A DNA stretch of 11,672 bases, taken from Planctomycetaceae bacterium. GTDB lineage: Bacteria > Planctomycetota > Planctomycetia > Pirellulales > Thermoguttaceae. The number at the start of each line of letters is the position of its first letter. Position 1 is the stretch's first letter. The DNA lies in NCBI GenBank assembly GCA_031266315.1, contig JAISBG010000040.1, positions 1 to 11,672 on the forward strand, written 5' to 3'. Shown here one piece after another: positions 1 through 11,438 of the stretch. Under the pieces are notes generated by a model, which saw only the letters and a program-made list of their open reading frames with translations, had not been told where the DNA came from and made no database searches. The position numbers were made by a program, and so were the translations under genes.

Positions 1-107
1 AAAGCCCGCTGGGCGGTCGTGCCGGTTGAGTCATAATTTTGCCGTCATTAATCTGATTCACTGTCGGCTAACGCCGACGCAACCTTTTAGCAAAAGGTTG
101 CCCACCT
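1..107 (-). repeat. Hairpin repeat copy A, cut by window edge
   Basis: This is one of five copies of an intergenic hairpin repeat and reads in the minus orientation. From position 107 leftwards it shows AGGTGGGC, then a perfect stem (GCAACCTTTT, loop GCT, AAAAGGTTGC), then a second stem of the GTCGGC/GCCGAC type. The conserved middle AGTGAATCAGATTAATGACG follows, and the copy ends in the GCCCAGCGGGCTTT type of far end. The far terminus lies outside the window. It begins 26 bases past the waaA stop codon, so it falls in the 3' region of that gene. No coding potential is seen. Confidence 0.85.
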
Positions 108-1575: not shown

Positions 1576-1604
1576 AGTAACTCATGTTACGCACCGTAGG
1601 TCAA
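1576..1604 (-). promoter_or_regulatory. Candidate waaA promoter inside repeat arm
   Basis: On the minus strand TTGACC (1599-1604) is followed after 17 bases by GTTACT (1576-1581), about 39 bases before the waaA ATG. The -35 is good (5 of 6 bases), but the -10 matches only 3 of 6. Most of the candidate lies in the outer arm of repeat copy B, so if real the element supplies the promoter. It is weak evidence, listed because nothing better lies in the short space between repeat and gene. Confidence 0.22.
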
Positions 1605-1823
1605 AAAGTCGGCAAAACATAAGAAAAATCGAAAGAGGTGGGCGACCTTTCGCTATTTGTTAAAAGGTCGCGTCGGCGTACTCGCCGACAGGGAATCAGA
1701 TTAACGACGGCAAAATGATGACTCAACCGGCGCGACCGCCCAGCGGGCTTTTTGATAAATAGCCCACCTCTTTCGATTTTTCGTGTGTTTGACTGACTTT
1801 TTTACCGTGCGTAACATGAGCTA
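1578..1823 (+). repeat. Hairpin repeat copy B with long outer inverted arms (MITE-like)
   Basis: The core (1636-1769) runs from AGGTGGGC to AGCCCACCT. It contains a perfect stem GCGACCTTT/AAAGGTCGC with an ATTTGTT-bearing loop, a second stem GTCGGCG/CGCCGAC, the conserved middle, and a GCCCAGCGGGCTTTTT far end. Outside the core, imperfect inverted arms of about 60 bases continue on both sides. The left arm starts CTCATGTTACGCAC at 1581 and the right arm ends GTGCGTAACATGAG at 1820. Both outer ends abut a TA dinucleotide (1578-1579 and 1822-1823), compatible with a TA target duplication. The unit is about 246 bases and lies 4 bases from the ptsI stop codon. No transposase or coding sequence is present. 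The overall form suggests a non-autonomous miniature inverted-repeat element; that is inference. Confidence 0.8.
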
Positions 1824-5501: not shown

Positions 5502-5643
5502 AGGTGGGCAACCTTTCGCTGAAAGGTCGCGTCGGCGATAGCCGACTGTGAACCAGATTAACACGGCAAACTGTATTGCCAACCGTTTTGGAGTCAATGC
5601 CGAGTCAACCGGCGCGACCCTTCAGCGAAGGGATCGTCCACCT
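5502..5643 (+). repeat. Hairpin repeat copy C
   Basis: This is a complete core from AGGTGGGC (5502) to GTCCACCT (5643). The first stem GCAACCTTTC/GAAAGGTCGC has one mismatched pair. The second stem is GTCGGC/GCCGAC. A third, GGCAA..TTGCC, lies in the middle. The far end is the symmetrical type, with CCCTTC-AGC-GAAGGG inside. The right flank CTTTCGCAATTTTTCGTGTG resembles the right flank of copy B, but no matching left arm is seen, so the outer unit is incomplete here. It is non-coding and lies in the rpoD-hpf gap. Confidence 0.85.
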
Positions 5644-5767
5644 CTTTCGCAATTTTTCGTGTGCTTCGCGTTTAAACGAACTTTTCAATGTTTAGACACC
5701 GCATCCGGTAGAATCATGAATTTTTAGAGATGCCCAAGTTTAATTTTTGATCCAATTTTTATTAGAG

Positions 5768-5856
5768 TAGCAGGTCAAGTGCAAAGGTTGCGGGACATTT
5801 TTTTTGATTAAACTTATCATTTACTGTCCCGCGAATCCTTGCACTTGACCTGTTAC
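5768..5856. repeat. Long inverted repeat just downstream of rpoD
   Basis: The left arm (5768-5797) and right arm (5825-5855) pair over about 28 bases. Both arms hold CAGGTCAAGTGCAA in inverted orientation, then a short imperfect patch, then CGGGACA. The roughly 27-base centre holds eight T and a partial palindrome (TGAT..ATCA). It lies about 45 bases past the rpoD stop codon. There is no T tract after the stem in the rpoD direction, so it is not a standard terminator. It shares no sequence with copies A-E. It may stabilise the rpoD 3' end or be another miniature element. Confidence 0.75.
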
Positions 5857-5899
5857 TTTCTACGATCAAATTTCCTTGACGCTATTGCCGTCTTGATTT

Positions 5900-8568: not shown

Positions 8569-8810
8569 TGTAATATTTCAGCGGAATTTTCGTTAAAAGT
8601 AATCCACACAAGGTAGGCAACCTTTCGCTGAAAGGTTGCGTCGGCGTACTCGCCGACAGTGAATCAGATTCACGACGGCAATTTTGTATTGCCAACTGGA
8701 ATTAGGGGCAAGTCGGCTAACGCCGACGCGATGTTTCAGCGAAACATCGCCCACCTTTTGAATTTTACCCATAAAGTCAATCATTTACAAAAATTCCCTG
8801 AATAATTACA
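8569..8810 (+). repeat. Hairpin repeat copy D, most symmetrical copy, with outer arms
   Basis: The core (8611-8756) consists of six stems in order. They are 8617-8639 (GCAACCTTTC, loop GCT), 8640-8657 (GTCGGCG, loop TACT), 8659-8673 (GTGAATC-A-GATTCAC), 8677-8693 (GGCAAT/ATTGCC), 8712-8727 (GTCGGC, loop TAAC) and 8728-8750 (GCGATGTTTC, loop AGC). The last two mirror the first two. Outside the core, TGTAATATTTCAG at 8569 faces CTGAATAATTACA at 8810, with partly matching inner arms, giving a unit of about 242 bases. It fills the gap between the dnaG stop and the YcxB-like gene. It has no coding content. Confidence 0.85.
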
Positions 8811-11158: not shown

Positions 11159-11438
11159 TAATTATTCGCAATTTCAGCGGAATTTTCATTAACTGGCTTT
11201 ATGGATAAAATTCAAGAGATAGTCAATCATAAAGTGGGCAACCTTTTGCTATTTGTTAAAAGGTCGCGTCGGCGATAGCCGACAGTGAATCAGATTAATG
11301 ACGGCAAAATTATGACTCAACCGGCGCGACCCTTCAGCGAAGGGATCGCCCACCATTTTTTGCCGACAGTGAATTAGATTAATGACGGCAAAATTATGAC
11401 TCAACCGCCCAGCGGGCTTTTTGATAAATAGCCCACCT
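11159..11438 (+). repeat. Hairpin repeat copy E, composite with internal duplication
   Basis: The core (11233-11438) begins GTGGGC with a stem GCAACCTTTT/AAAAGGTCGC (one mismatch, loop containing ATTTGTT). It continues through GTCGGC/GCCGAC and the conserved middle to a first far end of the copy C type, GATCGCCCACC (11344-11354). A second copy of the middle (11362-11407, 45 of 46 bases equal to 11278-11323) then leads to a second far end of the copy B type. The left outer arm (about 11159-11232) shares TTTCAGCGGAATTTTC with the left arm of D, and CTTTATGGATAAAATTCAA with the inverted right arm of D. It ends 29 bases from the TPR gene stop. Confidence 0.8.

Follow-up and report, generated by a model that had tools for sequence, protein, structure and literature searches.

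A GT[AG]G-tagged repeat of covarying hairpin dimers in a Planctomycetaceae bacterium is probably a REP-like, non-autonomous mobile element

The stretch of DNA analysed (the window, 11,672 nucleotides) corresponds to contig C45 in a draft genome of 4.24 Mb, which has 883 contigs and is 66% complete. The closest named relatives are MAGs labelled 'Planctomycetaceae bacterium', with DnaG 85-87% identical in the best six. By Pfam, its genes encode a KDO transferase, the phosphotransferase components PTS EI, HPr and EIIA, an S30AE ribosome factor, a sigma-70 factor, a YcxB-like protein and DnaG. Five copies (A to E) of a structured repeat lie in the window, all of them intergenic; their number agrees with a preliminary description of this DNA, as does the location of copy D, whose core is an inverted pair of tag-plus-hairpin units (type t1). 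The features are given below, the two feet and hairpin 4 being read directly from the sequence.

8611-8756, plus strand: core of copy D, inverted dimer of two tag-plus-hairpin units, type t1
8613-8616, plus strand: left GTAG foot of copy D
8617-8639, plus strand: hairpin 1 of copy D, 10-bp stem and triloop, covarying
8640-8657, plus strand: hairpin 2 of copy D, weaker covariation
8659-8673, plus strand: hairpin 3 of copy D, perfect here; 19 of 24 distinct copies have a mismatch
8677-8693, plus strand: hairpin 4 of copy D, in the spacer, absent from short t2 copies
8712-8727, minus strand: hairpin 5 of copy D, mirror of hairpin 2
8728-8750, minus strand: hairpin 6 of copy D, hairpin 1 mirrored, with different stem letters
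8751-8754, minus strand: right foot of copy D, GTGG on the minus strand
8569-8596, plus strand: left-hand outer arm of copy D (shell I); L098 lacks it, together with the core, at this junction
8784-8810, minus strand: right-hand outer arm of copy D (shell I)
1-107, minus strand: copy A, truncated where the contig ends; what remains is t2-like
1636-1768, plus strand: copy B (type t2), within shell IV
1581-1596, plus strand: shell IV terminal repeat, left of copy B
1805-1820, minus strand: shell IV terminal repeat, right of copy B
5502-5643, plus strand: copy C (type t2)
5699-5717, minus strand: shell II terminal repeat, right of copy C
11232-11355, plus strand: copy E (type t2)
11360-11437, plus strand: truncated tandem copy adjoining copy E
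11170-11192, plus strand: shell I terminal repeat, left of copy E

Copy D starts with AGGTAGGC and ends with GCCCACCT. Inward from either end come a GT[AG]G foot, the triloop hairpin 1 and then hairpin 2, and hairpins 1/6 and 2/5 are mirror images, as had been described. Six conserved hairpins in an order common to all copies were also proposed. Hairpins 1, 2, 5 and 6 are indeed conserved; hairpin 3 carries a G.A mismatch in most distinct copies (rows collected through similarity to the common sequence) and was ruled out as a conserved hairpin, and hairpin 4 is missing from the short t2 copies. Nor is the order shared: copies B, C and E differ in the right half, where type t2 lacks the mirrored hairpin 2 and has a hairpin with a single bulged T, and what the contig end leaves of copy A is t2-like. 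The window also contains, in the rpoD-hpf gap (5766-5857), a second, unrelated long inverted repeat of MITE-like appearance with 24-nt arms that are 88% complementary.

The anatomy was surveyed in 61 stretches of the same genome (385,067 bases including the window), 39 of them picked for matches, one for a Y1 gene and 20 by contig number regardless of matches. Counting as ends the 196 of 215 profile matches that start at profile position 3 or before, a GTGG or GTAG tag was present at 135 of 137 left-type and 59 of 59 right-type ends, 194 of 196 overall. These ends form 85 inverted pairs, 81 of which are 117-179 bp long; 36 pairs are D-like (t1), with foot, hairpin 1 and hairpin 2 at both ends, and 49 are t2. 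Copy density was 12 in the 99,763 bases of the 20 stretches picked by contig number, and the genome contains 675 exact tag-and-stem motifs, against three for a reversed-pattern control. The element thus numbers several hundred copies, and the earlier view that it is abundant and non-autonomous is supported.

The paired changes first noted between copies (A-T to G-C at the third pair, C-G to T-A at the last, CC/GG to TG/CA) are right in every letter and hold generally. Among 68 distinct hairpin 1 sequences from this and related genomes, 96.3% of 680 cells were paired, and nine of the ten pairs showed two-sided change, in 88 cells. None of 500 shuffles reached the observed paired fraction, number of two-sided pairs, number of two-sided cells or covariation score; four of 500 gave as many further pair types as observed, and in a second shuffle test 90 of 500 did. 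The signal was lost when the partner columns were slid by one to three positions. The alignment used (A1) comprises 68 of 74 distinct 29-mers, four bulged t2-type sequences, one indel and one insertion variant having been dropped and 17 indel variants from relatives excluded beforehand; alignment A2 (38) was picked by hand, and A3 was fitted to the model and is biased towards structure. In a tree-based test, three hairpin 1 pairs took the top three ranks among 2485 column pairs. Simulation on the tree of 115 own copies (of the 116 regular hairpins 1, themselves from 137 left ends) gave 149,100 null scores, all of them lower than those of pairs 9-27 and 16-20, with pair 13-23 at E 0.08; pairs 11-25 (E 3.4) and 12-24 (E 4.7) failed to pass. 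Some non-stem column pairs reached E 0.35-0.8, probably reflecting the mixture of left and mirrored-right halves. Hairpin 2 varies little in this genome, its two-sided changes coming mainly from relatives. Paired changes so far above chance support the proposal that structure rather than sequence is under constraint.

The six adjacent stems of the preliminary description can be drawn, and covariation favours local stems, but the minimum-energy RNA fold of D is a single long hairpin in which the two ends pair with each other. In 27 D-like elements, each of nine stem pairs was locally matched in 49-54 of 54 cases. The two ends of the same element differed in 25 of the 27, and in 20 of these 25 both local stems were perfect. 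Pair 9-27 matched locally in 51 of 54 cases versus 7 of 27 at long range, so that the constraint acts on each hairpin, and one long palindrome as the constrained unit is ruled out despite being the minimum-energy fold. Partners tend to be unlike in t1 dimers, where pair 9-27 was discordant in 23 of 33 (Fisher p 0.03), and show no preference in t2 (18 of 39, p 0.73); besides one unoriented pair, these counts exclude four that were long and eight that had T at the position tested.

Paired changes might also arise without selection, if template switching repaired quasi-palindromes, and the confinement of the changes to each hairpin is as expected of templating within a hairpin. Against such an artefact, the palindromes have not simply been perfected, since irregularities are retained: the G.A mismatch of hairpin 3, the bulged T in 46 of the 48 t2 right hairpins with the loop in register (of 59), and an A.G mismatch near the loop in 21 of 21 G006 ends among those listed. 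The tag and loop likewise stay fixed. We consider this explanation improbable.

The paired changes had been attributed to selection on RNA or on single-stranded DNA. Mispairs in hairpin 1 were balanced (G.T 15 vs A.C 12 of 1160 cells; in a second set, G.T 20 vs A.C 23 of 666 cells), and t2 elements were oriented at random with respect to co-directional neighbouring genes (12 vs 13). Because G.T and A.C are about equal and orientation is random, the data for the terminal hairpin favour DNA over RNA; the short form of hairpin 2 leans the opposite way, towards RNA, on few cells (G.T 9 vs A.C 4 of 150). A transcribed element whose hairpins stabilise, cleave or terminate mRNA would nonetheless account for the strong fold (region 8600-8770, z -8.8 against shuffles), for the intergenic location of 73 of 78 loci in a sample that is 77% coding (crude gene call, ORFs of at least 100 aa, also used for orientation), and for the shorter distance to 3' gene ends (median 81 bases) than to 5' ends (median 206). 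It sits poorly with the lack of G.U excess in hairpin 1 and with the random orientation. Enrichment between convergent genes is not clear either (12 of 57 vs 29 of 197): the 57 elements with two neighbours comprise 37 co-directional, 12 convergent and 8 divergent cases, near the background of 146, 29 and 22. The Rfam comparison that had been proposed gave no family at gathering score in the window. Mispair balance, placement and random orientation thus disfavor a terminator or other RNA role, which we regard as highly improbable.

The repeat is spread through the genus. A plain DNA query matched 12 of 20 related genus genomes and none of 19 others. With covariance model R1, at least 88 ends were found in 13 of 21 genus genomes (own included), 1-23 matches in five and none in three; about 150 candidates were scored per genome, so that these counts are floors. 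Outside the genus, R1 gave 0-2 marginal matches in each of 19 genomes, all at E 5e-4 or weaker. What is common to the genus members is the foot, and the stems are species-specific. Thus, the own-genome motif matched G006 eight times and G017 not at all, whereas structure matches numbered at least 123 and at least 149, respectively; the stems of these two genomes differ in letters (GCAGCCGACC.. and GCGGCGTTTC..) and have an AGGTAGG foot in common. The GT[AG]G foot was present at 62 of 64 ends in relatives, and at 36 of 36 among the matches listed (36 of 61) in G006, G011 and G017; among the places listed, the tag was GTAG in G014 and mostly GTGG in G013. A different GTAG-tagged hairpin (GTAGGGGCGGGGCTTGCCCCCGCCC and kin; four matches, two overlapping) lies at 1676-2009 of stretch L201 in G020, a core-poor member of the genus, not far from a weak match to a REP-associated tyrosine transposase (RAYT). 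Element-rich genomes within the genus (G000-G020) tend to have more contigs (p 0.004; G006, with 80 contigs, is an exception), so that the repeats probably break assemblies.

The core often lies within symmetric, MITE-like outer arms, or shells, whose terminal repeats fall into at least three classes (I, II and IV); shells I and II can share one arm and thus may not be independent. An arm was recognised on at least one side in 58 of 79 elements. The same arm class was present on both sides in 24 of 79, compared with 8.9 expected and with none of 10,000 shuffles reaching this number, and neither side had a recognised arm in 14 of 79. At the copy D junction, the relative L098, which has the same gene pair, lacks the core and shell I together, so the missing segment is longer than first stated, the arms reaching ~8569 and ~8810. 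This junction is not perfectly clean, with a few bases unaligned, and comparison with L098 revealed no target duplication at the D insertion.

These shells raise the possibility that DDE-type MITEs with shell I, II or IV ends are the mobile entity and the tag-hairpin core merely their palindromic interior. Besides the recognised and symmetric arms, this explanation can draw on the many shell terminal-repeat sites in the genome (II 389, IV 208; control 0), on exact 7-8 bp direct repeats flanking 5 of 17 full shell IV elements, and on shell IV surrounding unrelated hairpin arrays, two others in this genome and another in G009. On the other hand, the core occurs with three arm types and also armless on both sides, and G009 has shell IV at 69 sites with no core (0 model matches, 2 motif matches). 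Furthermore, the nearest facing shell ends are 193-387 bp apart among the matches listed (100 of 389 and 100 of 208), so that no transposase-sized copy is seen. On balance we hold the passenger explanation to be somewhat unlikely. Shell IV MITEs (ends CTCATGTTACGCACC; L233-L243, L224, L227, L232) hold their unrelated hairpin arrays as if cargo had been exchanged.

The short spacing of facing ends, among those matches listed, was also the ground for rejecting an autonomous IS with shell ends. Two more widely spaced pairs were set aside individually: on C380, nearer ends interrupt a pair 2.3 kb apart, and in L009 inspection of the ORFs enclosed by a 1684-bp pair showed no transposase. The ORFs of L224, the only G009 stretch with ORFs listed, are ordinary genes by eye.

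A Y1 or REP transposase had been suggested as partner; a search of these drafts revealed no cognate. The RAYT model NF047646 gave no match above cut-off in any of the 21 genus genomes, own included (matches below cut-off in six), compared with 13 of 19 genomes outside the genus. PF01797 had no match at E<=1e-3 in the element-rich G005, G008 and G013; in the own genome it found one gene (L079), of IS200 type by NCBIfam, whose 2.4-kb stretch contains no core copy and revealed no ends shared between the repeat and a resident IS200-type IS. This sole own-genome PF01797 gene adjoins, at L079 1900-2383, a tandem hairpin array (e.g., GACCCCTTACGGGGTC) of a different repeat family. Among 14 Y1 or RAYT loci of the genus (10 of its 26 PF01797 matches and four weak RAYT matches), one, the PF01797-found L085, had a tag-hairpin end, which appears unremarkable because such ends are dense. 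Overall, no gene tracks the element, whether by PF01797 and NF047646 in 40 genomes (own included) or by a RAYT-like protein across the genus. Absence of a RAYT from the genus is likely rather than certain, since the drafts are 66-90% complete and binning loses repeat-flanked genes.

The repeat was at first not recognised as a named family. That it stands outside the described families is not supported: its anatomy is that of GT[AG]G-tagged REP inverted dimers, as PMC3733652 and PMC6006769 describe them, with a foot tetranucleotide, a perfect or bulged palindrome beside it, extragenic location and hundreds of copies. In its treatment of the GTAG superfamily, PMC3733652 (Di Nocera et al. 2013) describes GTAG-tagged REPs that are short palindromes of high copy number, mostly extragenic, and form inverted dimers with structured spacers and a preference for heterodimers, which the unlike-partner preference of t1 dimers resembles; it also reports families in Planctomycetes, naming R. 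baltica. This likeness is one of anatomy, and unlike those REPs the present element has a second covarying hairpin after the first, MITE-like shells and no RAYT found in the genus. As in the REPINs treated in PMC3116915 (Bertels & Rainey 2011), the repeated unit is two inverted REPs and the hairpins show compensatory changes, the SBW25 group I foot being GTGGG; the difference lies in the want of a RAYT above cut-off in the 21 genus genomes. The E. coli type TnpAREP/REP system, in the parts of PMC8266576 and PMC6006769 devoted to it, also combines a foot (GT[AG]G rule) with a stem, which in one group has a bulge or mismatch that is conserved. Both foot and bulge are important for the enzyme (PMC8266576), and 'double foot' REPs have GT[AG]G at one end and its complement at the other (PMC6006769). 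The present element has another stem sequence, and the search for an enzyme found none. To MITEs, as outlined in the background of PMC3733652, the shells are alike in their terminal inverted repeats, in the short spacing of facing pairs among those listed and lack of a visible transposase gene, and, at 5 of 17 shell IV elements, in 7-8 bp direct repeats; they are unlike in that different, unrelated hairpin arrays take turns as the interior of shell IV and that the parent IS was not found. Among the papers listed in literature searches, none was on such repeats in termite-gut planctomycetes. We class the repeat as a variant among inverted dimers of GT[AG]G REPs and not as a RAYT-mobilised REPIN, because the cognate RAYT, usually REP-flanked in such systems, was sought in the genus and not found.

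From the tagged and covarying hairpins, their inverted pairing, the abundance of the copies, their extragenic placement and spread through the genus, and the shells, we infer, with a probability of roughly two in three, that this is a mobile element of REP-like kind, non-autonomous and of GT[AG]G-tagged REP/REPIN type, that is recognised as folded single-stranded DNA. The unit would be two tag-plus-hairpin ends in inverted orientation round a spacer, each end recognised as a folded single strand by its tag and hairpin shape, with little demand on stem sequence. Recognition of this kind would let the stems drift through paired changes while the tag, loop size and sometimes a fixed bulge or mismatch persist, and copies would spread to intergenic DNA, often carried within MITE-like shells. 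More tentatively, and as a rather unlikely extension, REP-like replicators may have persisted and diversified their stems genus-wide without a REP transposase, moved by another single-strand DNA enzyme or hitch-hiking in cargo-exchanging MITE shells.

REPs are common bacterial repeats whose movers are still mostly inferred. The genus forms a natural series, with the same tag, stems that differ between species, 13 of 21 genomes loaded, eight with 0-23 matches and no RAYT seen, so that the need for a RAYT becomes directly testable.
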